A DNA stretch of 61,373 nt from Cellulomonas aerilata (GTDB lineage Bacteria > Actinomycetota > Actinomycetes > Actinomycetales > Cellulomonadaceae): NCBI RefSeq assembly GCF_007991755.1, contig NZ_BJYY01000011.1, forward strand, positions 1 through 61,373, read 5' to 3'. The position numbers and the translations under genes are program-made. Under the pieces are notes generated by a model that saw only the letters and a list, made by a program, of their open reading frames with translations, was not told the DNA's origin and ran no database searches. Position 1 is the stretch's first letter; each line of letters opens with the position of its first letter. Of this stretch, positions 50,786-61,132 are shown in pieces.

Positions 50786-53512
<2,727 letters not shown>

Positions 53513-53524
53513 CCGCGGGGGGCG

Positions 53525-54742
53525 TCAGCTCCCGTCGTAGTAGTCCCGCGGCTTCCCGGAGCGGTCCACGAGCACGCCCAGCGTCGCCGCCGGCCGCTCG
53601 ATGACGAGATAGCTGACCCAGGCGACCAGCACGGACGCCGGGACGAGCACCGCCACGCCGACCGGGAACACCAGCGGTGAGTCCTGCGGCGGCAGCAGCC
53701 CCGCACCGGAGAGCCACAGCAGGATCGGCTCGTGCCACAGGTACAGGCTGTAGCTGACGACACCGAGGAACGACGGCACCGGGCCCCCGAGCATCCTCAC
53801 CCAGCGGTCCCGGGGGCCCAGCACGCTCGAGGCCAGCAGCAGCCCGAACCCCAACGCGGCGAGGGAGTGGAACCACACGTGCTCCCCCTCGCCCTGCGGC
53901 GGCCGGGTGGCCACGGCGAGCGCCAGCACACCGACCGACGCGGCGCGCACCGCCAGCGCCGCACCGCGCCCCAGGGTCGTCCTGCCCAGGGCGACCACCA
54001 CGGCCAGCGCCATGCCGAGGGCGAACACGTCGAGCTTCGCCGGCAACGTGAACCAGGTCGGCCACGAGGTCTCGGGCACGTCCAGCACGTGCCAGGCGAC
54101 GCCCTTCCAGGCCAGGCTCGACCCGGCCAGCAGCGCGGTCCCGCCCAGCAGCACCGCGGGGCGCGCGCGGGGACCCACGCGTCGGCACAGCCGGCAGGCC
54201 AGCGCCCCGAGCAGCGCGAGCAGGAGGTAGAAGTGGACCTCCACCGCCAGCGACCAGGCCGGCCCGATGGTCCAGAAGATTCGCTGCTGGTCGAACACCT
54301 GGGTGAACGTGAGGTGCTCGACCAGGTCGACCAGGTCGCCGGGGAGCACCGGGTTGCGCCACGCCCACACGACCAGGACGGCCACGAGGTACAGCGGGAC
54401 GATCCGTGCCGCGCGGCGCACGGCGAACGCGCGTCCGCTCGGCGACGGCTCACCGGCGAGCGCGCTGCGCGCGTACGGGAGCGTGAGGAGGAAGGCGGAG
54501 AGCACGAAGAAGAGCTCGACGAACGCGTCGAGGCCGTGCAGCAGCCGGGGGGTCAGGCCCGACCGGGGACCGAAGAGCTCCGGGACCCCGGTCACGGCGT
54601 ACTGGTTGACGTGGAAGACGACGATCGCGAGCGCGGCGAGCCCGCGGTAGCCCTCGAGCTCGGCGTAGCGACCGACCGCCCGGCCCGGGGCGTCGGCCGC
54701 GGCCCCGGCGACCGACGGGATGGCCCGCGGTGCCGGGCTCAC
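53525..54742 (-). CDS. Acyltransferase family 3 (OafA/YrhL-type) membrane protein
   Basis: A 405-residue membrane O-acyltransferase with about 10 helices. The family signature R-x-x-A-x-x-x-V-x-x-x-H is at residues 33-44 (RGLAALAIVVFH), FFVLSAFLLTLPYAR gives the F-F-V-L-S-x-F motif, and WSLAVEVHFYLLLALLGAL the conserved E-x-x-F/Y block. YSLYLWHEPILLW lies near the end. Such proteins O-acetylate extracellular polysaccharides or lipids. It is the last gene of the five-gene phosphorelay/synthase operon; the GTG overlaps the Hpt stop (GTGA). I infer that it decorates the polymer made by the GT2 fusion. Confidence 0.9.
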   Translation of the reverse strand: MSPAPRAIPSVAGAAADAPGRAVGRYAELEGYRGLAALAIVVFHVNQYAVTGVPELFGPRSGLTPRLLHGLDAFVELFFVLSAFLLTLPYARSALAGEPSPSGRAFAVRRAARIVPLYLVAVLVVWAWRNPVLPGDLVDLVEHLTFTQVFDQQRIFWTIGPAWSLAVEVHFYLLLALLGALACRLCRRVGPRARPAVLLGGTALLAGSSLAWKGVAWHVLDVPETSWPTWFTLPAKLDVFALGMALAVVVALGRTTLGRGAALAVRAASVGVLALAVATRPPQGEGEHVWFHSLAALGFGLLLASSVLGPRDRWVRMLGGPVPSFLGVVSYSLYLWHEPILLWLSGAGLLPPQDSPLVFPVGVAVLVPASVLVAWVSYLVIERPAATLGVLVDRSGKPRDYYDGS

Positions 54743-55047
54743 CGTCCGACCTCCTGCTCGAGCGACGCGACCAGGGTCTGCGCCTCGCTGCGGGCCGCGG
54801 CGCTCATCGCGCCCGGGCGGTCGCCGAGCAGCTCCTCCAGGCGTGCGGCCAGCACGCTGCCCTCGGGATGGCCGTAGCTGCCGAGCGAGCCCACCAGGTC
54901 GTGGGCCGCCTGCCGCGCGGCCTCGTACATCGCGTCGGACCCCTCGGTCCCGGCGCGCACGTACTCCCCGACGGCCCCCACCCGCTGGACCGCCAGCGGC
55001 TGGAACCGGGCCCAGAGCCGGGCGATGAGCTCGGGCGTCCCGCTCAC
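54739..55047 (-). CDS. Hpt (histidine phosphotransfer) domain protein
   Basis: A 102-residue all-helical protein. His49 in AARQAAHDLVGSLGSYG fits the Hpt signature H-x-L-x-G-S-x-x-x-x-G, and the surrounding helices (LIARLWARFQPLAVQRVG; LAARLEELLGD; AARSEAQTLVASLEQEV) match a four-helix bundle. Hpt proteins shuttle a phosphoryl group between receiver domains. The GTG start overlaps the stop of the receiver gene, and its stop overlaps the acyltransferase start, so all are co-translated. The next receiver in the relay is probably the one fused to the glycosyltransferase. Short length leaves some doubt, but context is strong. Confidence 0.85.
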   Translation of the reverse strand: MSGTPELIARLWARFQPLAVQRVGAVGEYVRAGTEGSDAMYEAARQAAHDLVGSLGSYGHPEGSVLAARLEELLGDRPGAMSAAARSEAQTLVASLEQEVGR

Positions 55048-55421
55048 GACGCCCACCCCAGGATCTGCTCGACCTCGCCCGCCAGCGTGAGCACGTCGAA
55101 GGGCTTGGCGAGCACGCCGACCACGGGGCCGGGGTCAGCCGTCACGTCCGGCACCGACATCGCCTTGGCGGTCAGCATGACGACGGGGATCGTCCGGGTG
55201 CGGGGGTCCTCGCCGAGCCGGCGCGCCGCCTCGGGGCCGTCCATGCCGGGCATCATGACGTCGAGCAGGATGGCCTCCGGCTGCTCCGCGGCCGCCAGGG
55301 CGAGCGCCTCCTGGCCGCCGGACGCCACGAGCACGCGCCACCCGGCCAGGTGCTCCAGCGCGGCGCGGACGAGCTCACGGATGTCCGGCTCGTCATCCAC
55401 CACCAGCACGGTCCTGGTCAT
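55044..55421 (-). CDS. Stand-alone response-regulator receiver protein
   Basis: A 125-residue CheY-like receiver with no output domain. The acid pocket is Asp9/Asp10, the phospho-acceptor is Asp54 in AILLDVMMPGMDG, the switch Thr is Thr84 (VVMLTAKA), and the conserved Lys is Lys106 (VLAKPFD). It should take phosphate from the histidine kinase encoded immediately upstream and pass it to the Hpt protein encoded immediately downstream. Overlaps of 4 bp on both sides (ATGA with the kinase, GTGA with Hpt) place it in one translation unit. Confidence 0.95.
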   Translation of the reverse strand: MTRTVLVVDDEPDIRELVRAALEHLAGWRVLVASGGQEALALAAAEQPEAILLDVMMPGMDGPEAARRLGEDPRTRTIPVVMLTAKAMSVPDVTADPGPVVGVLAKPFDVLTLAGEVEQILGWAS

Positions 55422-57079
55422 GCGGGCACCTTCCGGGTCGTCTCGGGACGGTCGTCGGCCGGCGCGCGTCGGCGCCGCTCGACGGCCACGGGCATCGTCT
55501 GGGACCGCACCGGCAGGTGCACCGTGAAGGTGCTCCCGGCACCCGGCTCGCTCGCCACCGTGATGAAGCCGCCGTGCGCCTCGACGATGTTCTTCGCGAT
55601 CGCCAGGCCCAGCCCCGTCCCGCCCGACGCGCGGCGCTGGCTGGAGTCGACCTGCCAGAAGCGGTCGAAGACGCGCGGCAGCGCGTCCGCCGGGATGCCC
55701 ACGCCCTGGTCGACGACGTCGATGTGCACCGCCGTCTCGTCGTGGCTGCCGGCGAGCCGGATCGTGCTGCCGGACGGGGAGAAGCGCATGGCGTTGCCGA
55801 GGAGGTTGGTGAGCACCTGCAGCAGACGGTGGTGGTCACCCCACACCTCCGCGGTGACCGGCTCGACCTCCACCCGGATGTCCCGTGCCAGCGCCGTGCC
55901 CTCGACCGTCGCCGCCGCGGCGCGCATGAGCTCGACGGCGTCCAGCGGCGTCCGGGTCAGGGACAGCGCGCCGCGGGCGGACTTCTCCAGGTCGAGGATG
56001 TCGTCCACCAGCCGCGCCAGGCGGTCGGCGTTGCGCACCGCGATGTCGAGGAAGGACGCGCCCGCGGGCGGCAGCTCGCCGCCCGCGCCGTGGTCGAGCA
56101 GCTCCAGCGCCGCCTTGAGCGAGGTCAGCGGGGTGCGCAGCTCGTGGCTGACGACGGAGGTGAAGTCGTCCTTCATGCGCTCGACGGCCAGGCGTGCGCT
56201 GGCGTCGCCGAACACGACCACGGCGCCGACCACCGCGTCGCCGTCCATCACCGGGCCCGACGACCAGTCGACGGGCAGGGGCGAGCCGTCCAGGCGCCAG
56301 AACGTGCCGAACAGGTCCCGCCGCGTGGCACCGCCGGACAGCACCTGGGTGACCGGGCACTCCTCCTCCGGGTAGTGCCGGCCGTCCCGGTGCCGGGAGT
56401 GGGTCAGGGCGTGCAGGTCCGAGCCGATGAGCTCGTACGCGCGCCAGCCCAGCAGCTCCTCCGCGGCCGCGTTGACGAAGGTCACCTGGCCGTGGCGGTT
56501 CACGCCGACGACGCCCTCGGCGACCCCGGCCAGCACCATCTCCGTGCGGCGCTGCAGGCTCTCCAGCTCCACGGAGACCTGCCGCTCCTCGTCCGCGCGC
56601 AGCTCGGCCTCCGCCCAGTGCGCCAGGTCCGCCAGCGCGTCCAGCTCGTCGGCGGTGAACCGGCGGGGCCGGTGGTCCATGACGCACAGCGTGCCCACGC
56701 CACGACCCCCGACCCGCAGCACCCGGCCCCCGTAGGCACGGACGCCGTCCGGCCCTGCGACGACGCTGAGGTCCCGGAACCGGCTGTCGGCCGAGGCGTC
56801 CTCGACCGCCAGGACGCCGGACATGTCCTCGGAGATCGCGTAGCCGCAGATCGACTCCTCCCGCGGCAGCTCGCCGTCGTCCAGCCCGACGGCGGACTTG
56901 TGCCACTGACGGCCGGCGTCGATGAGGCTCACGGCCGCGGACGGCACCTGCAGGACGCGCGCGGCCATCCGGGTGATCCGGTCGAAGCGCTCCTCCGGCG
57001 CCGTGTCCAGCAGGCCCAGCGACCGCACGACCGCGAGGCGCTGGCGCTCGTCGGGCCGCAGGGGCCACCGCTCGCTCAC
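55418..57079 (-). CDS. GAF-PAS sensor histidine kinase
   Basis: A 553-residue soluble histidine kinase with no membrane helix. A GAF domain lies at about residues 25-160 (ITRMAARVLQVPSAAVSLID, ESICGYAISED, GTLCVMDHRPRRF). A PAS domain follows at about 175-295 (GVAEGVVGVNRHGQVTFVN, ELLGWRAYELIG). The phospho-acceptor His sits in FTSVVSHELRTPLTSLK, and the ATPase has N-box NLLGNAMRFSPSG, G1 VVDQGVGIPADA and G2 GGTGLGLAIAKNIVEAHGG. The GAF domain (SLIDAGRQWHKSAVGLDDG) is of the type common in redox/light-like sensing kinases, with ligand unknown. The GTG overlaps the stop of the GT2 fusion gene. Confidence 0.95.
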   Translation of the reverse strand: MSERWPLRPDERQRLAVVRSLGLLDTAPEERFDRITRMAARVLQVPSAAVSLIDAGRQWHKSAVGLDDGELPREESICGYAISEDMSGVLAVEDASADSRFRDLSVVAGPDGVRAYGGRVLRVGGRGVGTLCVMDHRPRRFTADELDALADLAHWAEAELRADEERQVSVELESLQRRTEMVLAGVAEGVVGVNRHGQVTFVNAAAEELLGWRAYELIGSDLHALTHSRHRDGRHYPEEECPVTQVLSGGATRRDLFGTFWRLDGSPLPVDWSSGPVMDGDAVVGAVVVFGDASARLAVERMKDDFTSVVSHELRTPLTSLKAALELLDHGAGGELPPAGASFLDIAVRNADRLARLVDDILDLEKSARGALSLTRTPLDAVELMRAAAATVEGTALARDIRVEVEPVTAEVWGDHHRLLQVLTNLLGNAMRFSPSGSTIRLAGSHDETAVHIDVVDQGVGIPADALPRVFDRFWQVDSSQRRASGGTGLGLAIAKNIVEAHGGFITVASEPGAGSTFTVHLPVRSQTMPVAVERRRRAPADDRPETTRKVPA

Positions 57080-59403
57080 GACGCCTCCGTCCCTGCCGCC
57101 GGACCCGCCGCCCGGGGCGTCACCTTCCACTGCCTCTCCCCCACGAGCTCCTTGAGCTGCGCGACGCGCGCGATGACGTTCTTCCACTCGGTGTACGCCA
57201 GGGACGCCACCAGCAGGTAGAACCAGAACCACCCATGCCGGCGCCTGATCTCGGGCACGGCCAGCCGCTTGGCGAACACCACCTGCCCGGGGCCGACGGA
57301 CATGGTGAACAGGGTGGTGAGGATGAACAGGGTGATGAGCCAGTCGAGCCGCCCCACGCCGCCCTCGCGCACCGCGAGGAACGCGATGAGCGGCACCATC
57401 TGCACCGACAGCCACGGGTAGAGCTCGCGCCACCCGAGCAGGAAGGTCATCCCGGACTTCTGCCGCAGCGACAGGTGCGGGGACGCCCAGCCGCGCCGCA
57501 GGTGCTTGAGCGAGACCTGGAACCAGCCCTGCGCCCAGCGCATCCGCTGGTTCCACAGCTGACCGGCGGTGGTCGGGGCCAGCTCGCGGGAGACCAGCGC
57601 CGGGTCGTTGGCGATGCGCCCCCCGCCCTCGACCACGCGCAGGCTGGAGTCGATGTCCTCGGTCAGCATGAACCCGTGCATGCGGATCGCCCGCAGCCGG
57701 TCCGTGCGCCAGTAGCCGTTGGAGCCGCCGAAGACCCCGAACCCGTGCAGGCGCGCGCGGCCGGGGTGGCTCACCGCGTAGATCGACTCGAACTCGACGG
57801 CGACCGTCCGGGCGACCCATGACGCGTCGCCGTTGCGCACGACGCAGTGCCCCTGGACGACGTCGTACCCGTTCGACAGCCACCGCCACGCGCGGGAGAA
57901 CGCGTCCGGCGCGGGATGGTGGTCCGCGTCGAACACCCCGACGAACTCCCCGCGCACGCGCGCCAGGGCCGCGTTGACGTTCTGCGCCTTGGACGTGCTG
58001 CCCTCCACGCGCAACGGCAGGAACCGGGCGTCGCGCTCGGCGATCGCCTGCAGCGCCGCCTCCACGGGCATGGCGCGGGGGGTGTTGTAGGCGAGGACGA
58101 CCTGCAGGTCCGGGTAGTCCGTGCGCAGGAACGCCTCGACGGTCTCGACGACCGTCGCCGCCTCGTTCGGCAGGTAGGCCGCGATGACCGCCGACGCCCG
58201 CGGCTCGGGCGCTCCGGGCGTGCGCGGCGGGCGGTCCGGGTCGAGGGCCAGGAACCCCTCCATCCAGATGCTGGCGCCCGTGACGAGCAGCGCCACGACG
58301 ATGGCGACGTAGACCGGGGTCGCGACGTCGATCCCCAGCCGGTACAGGCCCAGGTACACCGCGAACGGCACGAGCCAGCCCACCAGGTACGTGGCGACGA
58401 TCTGCAGCGGGGTCCGCAGGCGCGCGGTCCAGGACGGGGCGGCGTGCCGGGACGGGCGCACCGTCGCCTCCAGCTCCGGGGTCCACGCGACCGGCTGCAG
58501 GTCCAGGTGTCCCCGTGCCGCGTCCTGAGCCAGCGCGGCGCGCGCGACGAGCCGGTCGGGCTCGTCGCCCCCGTCGGCGCCGGGCACGGCCCCGAACTCG
58601 GCCCAGCCCACCACCGGGGTCAGGCTGACCGGTTCGCCGCCGACGGAGAACGCCGCGGCCACGAGGCCGTCGGTGACGGCGCCGAGCCGCGCCGGGACGC
58701 CCGCGGCGGGGGTCTCGGGCAGCAGGACCAGGAACCGGCCCTCGTCGTCGCGGCCGACGAGGTCCAGCTCCTGCAGGTGCGCCTGCAGGACGGTGACCGC
58801 CTGCGCGGCCAGCTCGTCGTCGGCCGTCCGGCCGAAGCGCCGCCGCAGGGAGGCGCGCTCCTCCACGTCGATCACCGCGACCGCACCGGGGCGCGCCGAC
58901 CGCGCGGCGCGCGCCACCTCACGCTGCAGCTCCTCGGCGAACCGGGCCGGCCGGAGCACCCCGGTGCGCACGTCGCGGACCAGCTCGTCCACCGGCACCG
59001 GGGGCCGGCTCAGCTTGGCCAGGACCCGGGCGACCACCTCGTCGAGCTGGAACGGCTTGCGGATGTAGTCGTCGGCGCCCAGCCGCAGACCCGTCACGGC
59101 GTCCTCGGCGCCCGCGCGGCTGGTCAGGAAGACCAGCGGCAGGGAGCGCGTCCCGGGGTCGGCCCGCAGGCGTCCGACCAGGGCGAACCCGTCCATGTCC
59201 GGCATGTTGACGTCGCTGACCACCAGGTCCGGCACGGTGGCGCGCAGGTGCGCGAGCGCCTCGAGGCCCGACCGCGCGGTGAGCACCGCCAGCCCCTGGT
59301 CCTCCAGGCCGGCGCGGATCAGCTCGCGGACCATCTCGTCGTCGTCGACCACCAGGACGGTGCCCGACCGGAGCGCCGGCGTGCCCGTGTCGCTGCCGCT
59401 CAC
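57076..59403 (-). CDS. Receiver-degenerate GGDEF-GT2 glycosyltransferase fusion
   Basis: A 775-residue three-part protein. Residues 15-130 are a complete receiver: Asp20-22 pocket, phospho-acceptor Asp64 (VVSDVNMPDMDG), Thr94 and Lys116 (IRKPF). Residues 140-300 look like a GGDEF fold in which the GGDEF motif is replaced by DEGRF (220-224), so it should be inactive. Two membrane helices (about 335-355, 362-382) lead to a processive family-2 glycosyltransferase (about 400-640): FDADHH (Asp492/494), TED (581-583) and QRMRW (619-623). Three more helices follow. It resembles cellulose/hyaluronan-type synthases. The GTG has GAGGAGGG upstream. It heads the operon; the polymer is unknown. Confidence 0.93.
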   Translation of the reverse strand: MSGSDTGTPALRSGTVLVVDDDEMVRELIRAGLEDQGLAVLTARSGLEALAHLRATVPDLVVSDVNMPDMDGFALVGRLRADPGTRSLPLVFLTSRAGAEDAVTGLRLGADDYIRKPFQLDEVVARVLAKLSRPPVPVDELVRDVRTGVLRPARFAEELQREVARAARSARPGAVAVIDVEERASLRRRFGRTADDELAAQAVTVLQAHLQELDLVGRDDEGRFLVLLPETPAAGVPARLGAVTDGLVAAAFSVGGEPVSLTPVVGWAEFGAVPGADGGDEPDRLVARAALAQDAARGHLDLQPVAWTPELEATVRPSRHAAPSWTARLRTPLQIVATYLVGWLVPFAVYLGLYRLGIDVATPVYVAIVVALLVTGASIWMEGFLALDPDRPPRTPGAPEPRASAVIAAYLPNEAATVVETVEAFLRTDYPDLQVVLAYNTPRAMPVEAALQAIAERDARFLPLRVEGSTSKAQNVNAALARVRGEFVGVFDADHHPAPDAFSRAWRWLSNGYDVVQGHCVVRNGDASWVARTVAVEFESIYAVSHPGRARLHGFGVFGGSNGYWRTDRLRAIRMHGFMLTEDIDSSLRVVEGGGRIANDPALVSRELAPTTAGQLWNQRMRWAQGWFQVSLKHLRRGWASPHLSLRQKSGMTFLLGWRELYPWLSVQMVPLIAFLAVREGGVGRLDWLITLFILTTLFTMSVGPGQVVFAKRLAVPEIRRRHGWFWFYLLVASLAYTEWKNVIARVAQLKELVGERQWKVTPRAAGPAAGTEAS

Positions 59404-59506: not shown

Positions 59507-61132
59507 TCAGCCCGCCGGGCCGATCCGGACGGTGCTGAACGACCAGGGCGGGACCACGACGTCGTACGCCCGGCCGCCGGCCTGCACCCGCACCGTGGTG
59601 GCCGGCCAGCCGCCGTGGTGGACGAGCACGGTCGTGCTGCCGTCCGGCGCCCGGAACGCCACCTGGTCGAGCGCCGCCGAGGTGGCGGTGGACGGGACGC
59701 GGACCGACCCCCGGGGGACGAAGCGGGCGGCCTGGCCGAGCACGTAGTACTCCGCGTTCGCCGTGACCCTGCCGTCCTGGACGGTCACCACGCCCGTGCA
59801 GGTGCCGCAGCCGCCCGTGTGCGGTCCGCCGCTCGCGTCCAGCGCGAGGTTCCACGTCACCACGCCGGTGGCCCAGTGCCGCAGGGAGGCGATCACCAGG
59901 TTCTTCGACTGCCAGTACACCGTGTCGGCGAAGATCCGCTCGGGGGTGTCGGTGGGTGCGTGCGACCCGGAGCACTCGGTGACCCAGACGGACTTCGTCG
60001 GGAACTCCGCGTGCAGCGGCTCCTGCGCCGACGCGTCGCCGTAGTAGCAGTGGAACGCGGTGCCGGAGATCCACGGAGCGGCCGAGCTGCGCAGCAACCG
60101 GGCCGGGTAGTCCAGCTCCGGGTCGCCGCCGGCCGGCACCGCCGCCAGGTCGCCGGGGTGCTCGGCCCAGTTGTGGTCGAAGCCGAGGATCCGTGTGGCC
60201 AGGCCCGCGTTGCGCAGCTTGACCCCGAGCGCGCCGATGACGGCGGTCTGGGTGGCGACCGGCATCTCCATGCGGGGGTAGTCCCCCCACGTCCGGGTCT
60301 GCGGCTCGTTCTGGACGGTGAGGTAGTCGAGGGGGACGCCGGCGTCGCGGTACTCCTGGGCGGCGCGCACCAGGTAGTCGGCGTACGTGCCGACCGCGCG
60401 GCGGTCCTGGGACAGGCGCCCGCCGTTCAGGTGCAGGCTCGTCTTCATCCACGCCGGGGGGCTCCACGGTGAGGCGACGACGACCACCTCGGGGTTGATC
60501 GAGCGGATCTGACGCAGGACCGGTCGCAGCACCAGGTCGTCGGGCGAGGTGCGGAACCGCTTGAGGTTCCAGTCGGCGACGTTGCCCGCCGTGTCGTCGT
60601 AGGTGTACGGCTGCCCGACGACGAAGTCGGAGCCGCCGAGCGGGATCCGGACGACGGAGAGGCGGACGGGCCCGTCCGGCGCGAACAGCTCGCGCAGGAC
60701 GGCCTGCCGCTGCTCGCCGGGGAGGCTCGCGAGGAGCGCTGCGGACGCATGGGTCAGCGCGGCACCGAACCCGGTCACGGACTGACCGCCCGCGGGCGCG
60801 CCCAGCGTGATCGTCGGCACGTCGGTCGGCACGTCGGTCGGCACGTCGGTCGCGGTGGCGGAGGCGGAGGCGTAGGCGGCGACGGTCCCGCCGAAGGAGA
60901 GGCGCGCACCGCCGTCACCGGTCGTGCTCCAGATGCTCGCCGTGCCGGGGGCGGTGTCGGGCTCGGCCACCACGGCGGGGACGAGGACCGAGGGCGCCGG
61001 CGCGCCGAGGCTCGCCGCGCCGACGGCCGCCGCGGGCGATGCGCCCACCAGCCCGAGCAGGGCCGACGTCGCGACGGCTGCCGCGCCGGTCCGGCGCAGC
61101 CGTCGAGCACGTGCGGTCGAGACGTGGCTCAT
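59507..61132 (-). CDS. Secreted GH30-family glycoside hydrolase
   Basis: A 541-residue secreted enzyme. The signal peptide (AAAVATSALLGLVGASPAAA) ends near residue 37. After a Thr/Ala linker with a TDVP triplet (residues 95-106), the GH30 barrel starts at GFGAALTHASAALL. The acid/base is Glu276 in LTVQNEPQT and the nucleophile Glu386 in WVTECSGS. VRIPLGGSDF, ASPWSPPAWMKTS and GFDHNW are family landmarks, and the small C-terminal beta-sandwich ends PPWSFSTVRIG. GH30 includes glucosylceramidases, beta-1,6-glucanases and xylanases; the subfamily is not certain. It is on the same strand as, and 103 bp upstream of, the GT2 fusion gene. Confidence 0.92.
   Translation of the reverse strand: MSHVSTARARRLRRTGAAAVATSALLGLVGASPAAAVGAASLGAPAPSVLVPAVVAEPDTAPGTASIWSTTGDGGARLSFGGTVAAYASASATATDVPTDVPTDVPTITLGAPAGGQSVTGFGAALTHASAALLASLPGEQRQAVLRELFAPDGPVRLSVVRIPLGGSDFVVGQPYTYDDTAGNVADWNLKRFRTSPDDLVLRPVLRQIRSINPEVVVVASPWSPPAWMKTSLHLNGGRLSQDRRAVGTYADYLVRAAQEYRDAGVPLDYLTVQNEPQTRTWGDYPRMEMPVATQTAVIGALGVKLRNAGLATRILGFDHNWAEHPGDLAAVPAGGDPELDYPARLLRSSAAPWISGTAFHCYYGDASAQEPLHAEFPTKSVWVTECSGSHAPTDTPERIFADTVYWQSKNLVIASLRHWATGVVTWNLALDASGGPHTGGCGTCTGVVTVQDGRVTANAEYYVLGQAARFVPRGSVRVPSTATSAALDQVAFRAPDGSTTVLVHHGGWPATTVRVQAGGRAYDVVVPPWSFSTVRIGPAG
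60815..60850 (-). repeat. Triplicated 12-bp coding repeat
   Basis: Three tandem copies of a 12-bp unit (plus strand CGGTCGGCACGT) encode TDVP three times in the linker of the GH30 protein. This is a likely site of slippage length change. Confidence 0.8.

Follow-up and report, generated by a model that had tools for sequence, protein, structure and literature searches.

Phosphorelays are familiar mainly as routes to a DNA-binding regulator. A receiver fused to a GT2 glycosyltransferase is already on record in archaea: the MTH_548-type response regulators of Methanobacteriaceae, reported in three genera only, join one or two REC domains to a BcsA-like GT2 domain (PF13641; PMC5847659). In the EpsW-EpsZ system of Myxococcus xanthus, phosphorylation of a receiver turns on polysaccharide synthesis at the post-translational level. 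EpsW is a separate protein, its target is a phosphoglycosyl transferase of a Wzx/Wzy pathway and its kinase is that of the Dif chemosensory system; some small monoPGTs also bear receiver domains (PMC12802240).

Here we examine a 61,373-nt stretch of Cellulomonas aerilata contig NZ_BJYY01000011.1 (GCF_007991755.1), hereafter the window, and within it a minus-strand operon (59403-53525). We consider it probable that this operon directs the formation of a surface polysaccharide that is synthase-dependent and acyl-decorated, and that the synthase itself serves as the last response regulator of a phosphorelay of its own. Its first gene encodes a fusion that fits the Methanobacteriaceae proteins in Pfam domain content (REC plus PF13641); the GGDEF-like domain, the relay operon and the acyltransferase belong to the window, with none of them mentioned for the archaeal proteins in the part of PMC5847659 available. 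What the proposed system would share with EpsW-EpsZ is the post-translational activation of polysaccharide synthesis by a phosphorylated receiver (PMC12802240). Among the matches listed from the open-licence PMC literature (as distinct from subscription papers and bioRxiv), none names a bacterial REC-GGDEF-GT2 protein or a relay-synthase operon. The first-pass annotation, which knew of no described system with this gene set, thus holds for the operon in that literature and gives way for the fusion, given the archaeal precedent.

The operon comprises five genes, in the order fusion, GAF-PAS kinase, lone receiver, Hpt and Acyl_transf_3, and neighbours share 4 bp at all four junctions (Table 1). 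Gene boundaries and overlaps in the first-pass annotation were accurate to the base, its residue numbers for the fusion (Asp64) and Hpt (His49) were correct, and the domain families it assigned to all five genes were borne out by Pfam above curated cut-offs. These comprise Response_reg, GGDEF and Glyco_tranf_2_3 in the fusion; GAF, PAS, HisKA and HATPase_c in the kinase, where no extracytoplasmic sensor domain was identified; Hpt (28.4 bits against a cut-off of 24.6); and PF01757 in the acyltransferase (100 bits against 31). A transcriptional output of the relay was rejected because no DNA-binding domain exceeded its Pfam cut-off in any of the five proteins; a DprA_WH match in the fusion falls below threshold (17.9 bits against 22.9).

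Table 1. Features of the Cellulomonas aerilata operon, of the fusion protein it encodes and of the adjacent glycosidase gene.
Feature	Position	Strand	Description
REC-(dead GGDEF)-TM-GT2-TM fusion	57076..59403	(-)	775 aa; predicted receiver-controlled membrane polysaccharide synthase
Receiver domain of fusion	59023..59358	(-)	residues 16-127; Response_reg 99.8 bits
GGDEF-like domain of fusion	58489..58977	(-)	about residues 143-305; without GG[DE]EF motif
GT2 catalytic domain of fusion	57526..58203	(-)	residues 401-626; PF13641 83.4 bits
GAF-PAS-HisKA-HATPase_c histidine kinase	55418..57079	(-)	553 aa; predicted phospho-His 312
Stand-alone receiver	55044..55421	(-)	125 aa; predicted phospho-Asp 54, codon 55260-55262; Pfam Response_reg
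Hpt phosphotransfer protein	54739..55047	(-)	102 aa; predicted phospho-His 49, codon 54901-54903
Acyl_transf_3 (OafA/IcaC-type) membrane acyltransferase	53525..54742	(-)	405 aa
GH30 glycosidase	59507..61132	(-)	start ATG 61132 picked by eye; open frame extends to 61330

A GH30 gene that the first-pass annotation did not mention lies 103 bp upstream of the operon on the same strand. Its product matches the NCBIfam endo-1,6-beta-glucanase model with 224 bits (E 2e-66), under the cut-off of 700. The gene seems to be a member of the same accessory cassette as the operon, and this cassette, GH30 seemingly included, is missing in 4/4 congeners.

The N-terminal receiver of the fusion retains the acidic pair (D20/D21), the acceptor D64 (codon 59212-59214), T94 and K116. 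An intact receiver is thus joined to an enzyme domain, as in response regulators with enzymatic output. The GGDEF match that follows covers residues 143-235 (33.4 bits against a cut-off of 23.8), with fold elements reaching about residue 299 in the AlphaFold2 model. A profile built from this domain matches all 86 fusions in our comparison set, receiver-less ones included, while the GG[DE]EF active-site motif occurs in none of them (0/86; L033 is without that stretch of sequence), and on the loss of this motif an active diguanylate cyclase was rejected. At what we take to be the position of the RxxD inhibitory site, the window fusion reads QELD, with no Arg seen. The best PDB matches of the model (pLDDT 88.9) are the REC-GGDEF regulators PA3702, PleD, a WspR homologue and DgcR; BcsA and hyaluronan synthases come next. 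Together, the receiver and dead GGDEF-like domain resemble the N-terminal part of a response-regulator cyclase of the PleD/WspR type, and they probably form a dimerisation and allosteric module. The fusion shares the REC-GGDEF arrangement and fold with PleD, WspR and DgcR, but has lost the cyclase motif and has the synthase itself joined on.

The C-terminal half carries the marks of a processive GT2 synthase: the motifs DAD (492-494), TED (581-583) and QRMRW (619-623), corresponding to DxD, TED and Q(Q/R)xRW, in columns that are invariant in an alignment of 37 fusions, and flanking long helices in the model (325-355, 361-386, 688-714 and 723-754) that are presumably membrane-embedded. The protein is thus a putative polymer-making enzyme, and its product may be PNAG-like or another beta-linked polymer. 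Resemblance extends to BcsA, hyaluronan and PgaC-type synthases (BcsA by profile at E 1e-12), and PgaC_IcaA is the only glycosyltransferase model among the 25 NCBIfam matches listed. The score of 76.7 bits nevertheless lies far under the curated cut-off of 422.3 for the PgaC/IcaA poly-GlcNAc synthase model TIGR03937. A C-terminal PilZ domain is a defining trait of BcsA cellulose synthase, and the Pfam matches of the fusion at E 1 or better include none, which sets it apart from BcsA; where BcsA is under c-di-GMP control, the window fusion has a phospho-receiver in that place. Like PgaC/IcaA and BcsA with their IcaC/OafA-type acyltransferases, the window combines GT2 synthase motifs with an Acyl_transf_3 partner. 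The likeness to these systems extends to relatives of the fusion, as a gene encoding TPRs and a PgaA-like barrel lies directly upstream in 4/4 Gram-negative-type relatives scanned (above Pfam cut-off in two).

All parts of a four-site relay are present in the window, namely a kinase without its own receiver, a lone receiver, an Hpt and a terminal receiver, each with its phospho-residue. We propose that the kinase autophosphorylates on His312, presumably as its family does, and that phosphate would pass from there to Asp54 of the lone receiver, to His49 of Hpt and finally to Asp64 of the fused receiver, a route and order suggested by domain content and conserved residues. The phosphorylated receiver and dead GGDEF-like module would then act on the joined synthase rather than on c-di-GMP production. 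Direct phosphorylation of the synthase is our best reading of the sequences, and we lean towards activation rather than inhibition as its effect, although this is a guess. Since the last step of such a relay sits within the polysaccharide-making membrane enzyme, the sensed signal could switch synthesis directly and not via genes.

The operon set is not a chance arrangement, because it is found again in other genomes. Our comparison set of 86 fusions comprised the window, five others and 80 of 195 relatives found. In 12/86 loci (window and one truncated-fusion locus included) kinase, receiver and Hpt are co-directional with the synthase; loci with the relay set include Demequina, Cryobacterium, Mycolicibacterium xanthum and uncultured actinobacteria. 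The first-pass annotation held that its reading would fall if the gene order occurred in no other genome; it recurs, and two Demequina loci have the window's exact order with the acyltransferase last. Among 16 Hpts and 16 lone receivers called in relay loci, the phospho-His is kept in 12/12 aligned Hpts and D54/K106 in 12/12 aligned receivers. As a partner the acyltransferase has the wider distribution, and it also accompanies synthases without a working receiver. Scans by class at E <= 1e-80 gave relatives in 5/298, 2/39 and 2/66 genomes, nearly all of them already known. Left out of the counts were L126, the one new match from the Chloroflexota-class scan; L117, in which synthase, GAF kinase, receiver and Hpt genes run in one direction but the synthase frame is interrupted or truncated at its start; L118, with neither receiver nor relay; the fragment L119; and L115/L116, repeats of L021/L055.

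If the relay ends on the synthase, integrity of the fused receiver should track the presence of co-directional kinase and Hpt genes. Such genes (kinase and/or Hpt) adjoin 17/29 fusions with intact receivers and 0/56 with decayed or absent receivers, one truncated row of the 86 having been dropped. The contrast persists after thinning at 85% (14/25 vs 0/25), 75% (11/19 vs 0/11) and 70% identity (5/10 vs 0/10). Counting either strand, the figures are 19/29 and 6/56; in the latter six a kinase lies close by on the opposite strand, and four of them come from Proteobacteria, where convergent genes for receivers and a kinase sit next to a decayed fused receiver. In L020, the gene scored as a kinase has HisKA and no HATPase match. 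On a quick tree there are seven independent changes in receiver state and six in relay state, none contrary and too few for significance, and a tree-aware paired test yields two to three independent pairs on supported branches. The phosphorelay reading of the first-pass annotation is supported in part, by the presence of the relay parts with their phospho-residues and by this tracking.

Relay genes acting on other targets as mere neighbours, with unrelated kinases serving the fused receiver, would account for the 12/29 intact fusions without co-directional relay genes (eight Chloroflexota, one Acidobacteriota and three Actinomycetota, with contig ends near in L021, L030 and L037), and the window's genome does encode another Hpt, C14, in a 1012-codon frame. 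The 4-bp overlaps, the recurrence of the set in 12 loci across several families and its complete co-directional absence wherever the receiver is decayed or missing make this very improbable. An Hpt profile run on the 19 genomes behind 20 loci matched in six: in G627, G628, G630 and G631 the best match is the Hpt of the locus itself (L043, L055, L074 and L046, respectively), the Frankiales MAG RYN_183 (G616, holding L024 and L028) has an Hpt and receiver pair on another contig, and G620 (L031) gives one weak match (1.3e-5). The profile found no related Hpt in the eight Chloroflexota genomes whose intact fusion is an orphan.

The composition of several loci speaks for a simpler route, in which the fused receiver gets its phosphate straight from the kinase, and the lone receiver and Hpt form a phosphate sink or a branch for back-flow by which synthesis is turned off. 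In L023 a kinase adjoins the fusion, with neither a lone receiver nor an Hpt; L058 encodes a hybrid kinase and no Hpt, and L020, L045 and L046 have kinase and receiver without a co-directional Hpt; the Hpt profile finds no match in the genomes of L020 (among 150 of 241 candidates), L023 and L058. We regard this route as unlikely for the window, as Hpt retains its His in every aligned copy and an Hpt adjoining two receivers and a receiver-less kinase is the classic relay layout. In a comparison of matched with shuffled pairs for co-variation of the Hpt-facing surfaces of lone and fused receivers, as evidence of a shared Hpt, neither alpha1 (p 0.46) nor beta5-alpha5 (p 0.055) reached significance (n=10 loci). 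Alternatively, the N-terminal half may be mainly a nucleotide sensor, its GGDEF-like domain binding GTP or c-di-GMP and its receiver secondary or vestigial, which would agree with the retention of that domain in receiver-less fusions and with the REC-GGDEF proteins that head the structural matches. Loss of the canonical motif throughout, the QELD without an RxxD Arg in the window, a Pfam GGDEF match in the window and in L014 and L015 against none in L016-L018, and full retention of receiver residues wherever relay genes adjoin co-directionally leave this a small probability.

On the preferred reading of a relay ending on the synthase, we can sketch a tentative history, somewhat more doubtful than the mechanism itself, in which a second messenger was short-circuited. 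Fusion of a REC-GGDEF cyclase regulator to the synthase would have been followed by decay of the cyclase site, and control of the synthase would have passed to a four-step phosphorelay of its own, acting by direct phosphorylation. In Streptomyces and Pseudonocardiaceae relatives, decay or disappearance of the receiver may then have gone along with loss of the relay, leaving synthase and acyltransferase, a direction that we infer on an unrooted tree; in some Proteobacteria, separate receiver genes next to the synthase may have taken over.

If a relay does end on a synthase in the same polypeptide, matrix production would be switched without transcription and without c-di-GMP, from a compact operon open to transfer and rebuilding. 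Furthermore, the natural set of intact receivers with a relay and pseudo-receivers without one allows the receiver's role to be tested, both by comparison and by single-residue substitution.

The first-pass annotation had read the five-gene operon, from its sequence, as a complete His-Asp-His-Asp phosphorelay ending on a polysaccharide synthase. Its five minus-strand genes and their families agree exactly with our ORF coordinates and Pfam assignments, neighbouring genes share 4-bp overlaps at every junction, and the two residues that it named, Asp64 of the fusion and His49 of Hpt, are numbered correctly. In the receiver fused to the synthase, the acidic pair and the Asp, Thr and Lys of working receivers are all present.

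Genes of the relay operon and the adjoining glycosidase gene
Gene	Position	Strand	Pfam domains (over curated cut-offs)	Remarks
REC-GGDEF-like-GT2 fusion	57076-59403	minus	Response_reg, GGDEF, GT2	
Histidine kinase	55418-57079	minus	GAF, PAS, HisKA, HATPase_c	phospho-His 312
Lone receiver	55044-55421	minus	Response_reg	phospho-Asp 54
Hpt protein	54739-55047	minus	Hpt	phospho-His 49
Acyltransferase	53525-54742	minus	Acyl_transf_3	
GH30 glycosidase	59507-61132	minus, like operon		103 bp upstream of fusion gene

Close relatives of the GT2 domain occur in 5 of 221 genomes of the window's own family, its own genome counted (E <= 1e-40), and in 6 of 396 genomes drawn from the phylum (E <= 1e-80); the synthase family is therefore rare and patchy. 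A scan of a named genome collection found 195 relatives, the best 80 of which come from Actinomycetota, Chloroflexota, Acidobacteriota, Thermomicrobiota and Pseudomonadota. Using purpose-built HMMs, we compared 86 fusions and their neighbourhoods: the window, four genomes of its family, one Streptomyces plasmid record and these best 80 of 195. Kinase, receiver and Hpt genes are all co-directional with 12 of the 86 fusions (the window, relatives' loci L015, L019, L022, L027, L032, L034, L035, L039, L043 and L055, and L033, truncated at a contig end).

Relay genes tend to accompany fusions whose receiver is intact. With the truncated L033 excluded, the fused receiver is intact in 29 of 85 fusions and not in 56 (43 pseudo-receivers, three partial, ten without a receiver). 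Kinase and/or Hpt genes adjoin co-directionally 17 of the 29 intact fusions versus 0 of the 56 others (Fisher 1.6e-10, a value inflated by relatedness among the fusions). Thinning to one row per cluster gave 14/25 versus 0/25 at 85% identity (p 1e-5), 11/19 versus 0/11 at 75% (p 0.0016) and 5/10 versus 0/10 at 70% (p 0.03), with zero, two and three mixed-label clusters left out, respectively. On a quick tree, receiver state changes seven times and relay state six, with no pair in the wrong direction and too few independent pairs to reach significance. Co-directional relay genes are missing at 12 of the 29 intact fusions (eight Chloroflexota, one Acidobacteriota, three Actinomycetota), three of which lie close to a contig end. 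The gene counted as a kinase at L020 has HisKA and no HATPase match. When either strand within four genes is considered, a kinase or Hpt gene is found at 19/29 intact versus 6/56 non-intact fusions (p 3e-7). Two of the six are acidimicrobiial (L051, L063), and the other four are proteobacterial (L074, L083, L085, L094), with a decayed fused receiver adjoined by convergent receiver genes and a kinase. In these four the convergent gene next door to the fusion, beside the kinase, encodes two receivers, and the role of the fused receiver may have passed to another protein.

The GT2 part of the window fusion matches PF13641, and its DAD, TED and QRxRW motifs do not vary across 37 aligned fusions. 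PgaC_IcaA is the sole glycosyltransferase model among the 25 NCBIfam matches listed, far below its cut-off, and a PDB search with a profile built from the window and five relatives hits BcsA (E 1e-12). An AlphaFold2 model built from the 37-fusion alignment (mean pLDDT 88.9, pTM 0.79) has as its top PDB matches the REC-GGDEF response regulators PA3702, PleD, a WspR homologue and DgcR, followed by BcsA, hyaluronan synthases and the mannosyltransferase PcManGT. Over the whole chain the TM-scores stay low, at 0.2-0.5, with 0.77 by target for PcManGT. The matches come without ranges; their assignment to the two halves of the predicted fold is one that we infer. In our reading, the fusion attaches the front half of a response-regulator cyclase to a polysaccharide synthase of the membrane. 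One relative (L046:7042-10320) carries two tandem REC-GGDEF-like units before its GT2 domain.

The best reading, and one that we consider probable, is a relay in which phosphate from kinase His312 would pass to Asp54 of the lone receiver, then to His49 of Hpt and finally to Asp64 of the synthase, where it would gate the GT2 domain by way of the module formed by REC and the dead GGDEF. The parts, their residues, the recurrence and the correlation are observed; each transfer, their order, the sign of the effect and the product we infer. The phospho-His of Hpt, and Asp54 and Lys106 of the lone receiver, are retained in 12 of 12 aligned proteins each (of 16 called in relay loci, near-copies and some others being omitted). 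Gene order differs among loci: kinase-receiver-fusion-Hpt at L015, fusion-receiver-Hpt-hybrid kinase at L043, and kinase-fusion alone at L023; the window's full order, acyltransferase last, recurs in two Demequina loci. That the kinase signals directly to the fusion, with the Hpt branch as a sink, is rather unlikely. A Frankiales MAG holds an Hpt and receiver pair of this family (L114:6150-6838), next to a bacterial proteasome activator homologue on a contig without a synthase, and also two intact orphan fusions (L024, L028).

Less probable still is that the GGDEF-like domain serves as a nucleotide sensor. It is matched in 86/86 fusions by a purpose-built profile, and in the window by Pfam GGDEF (33.4 bits, cut-off 23.8); among six fusions scanned, Pfam matches the window, L015 and L014, and not L016-L018. 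The GG[DE]EF motif occurs in 0 of the 86, truncated L033 lacking that stretch.

Turning from the relay to its likely output, 51 of the 86 fusions share a co-directional run with an Acyl_transf_3 gene by our own gene calls, and such an ORF is present at 54 loci. The acyltransferase is the usual sole partner of the synthase in Streptomyces relatives, with pseudo-receivers, and in Pseudonocardiaceae relatives, which have no receiver. One gene directly upstream of the synthase encodes both TPR repeats and a PgaA-like barrel in all four Gram-negative-type relatives scanned, the barrel scoring over the Pfam cut-off in L094 and L061 and under it in L031 and L046. IcaC is also an Acyl_transf_3 protein. 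Because of the barrel gene, the PgaC likeness and the acyltransferase partner, an acylated polymer, PNAG-like or otherwise beta-linked, is a plausible, though unproven, product.

The GH30 protein matches an NCBIfam endo-1,6-beta-glucanase model at E 2e-66, under that model's cut-off, and GH30-like ORFs, sought with it as seed, occur at 6/86 loci. All four congeneric genomes share the conserved flank at 51000-53520; homology ends sharply at 53482-53518, the acyltransferase end of the operon, and these four genomes lack both GH30 (E <= 1e-20) and the synthase (E <= 1e-40). GH30 and the five operon genes therefore seem to have arrived, or been retained, together as one accessory cassette, whose upstream border lies beyond the contig end. 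The gene immediately before the break (53482-53525) has 231 codons and, judged by eye, is Nudix-like; since the gene that follows is common to two congeners and different in the other two, this looks like a variable site.

Parts of this architecture have precedents. Methanobacteriaceae are reported to have a BcsA-like GT2 domain (PF13641) joined to REC in MTH_548 (PMC5847659). In Myxococcus the lone receiver EpsW~P activates the phosphoglycosyl transferase EpsZ, and some small monoPGTs carry receiver domains (PMC12802240). Searches of open-licence literature, at listing level, named no bacterial REC-GGDEF-GT2 synthase and no relay operon around one.
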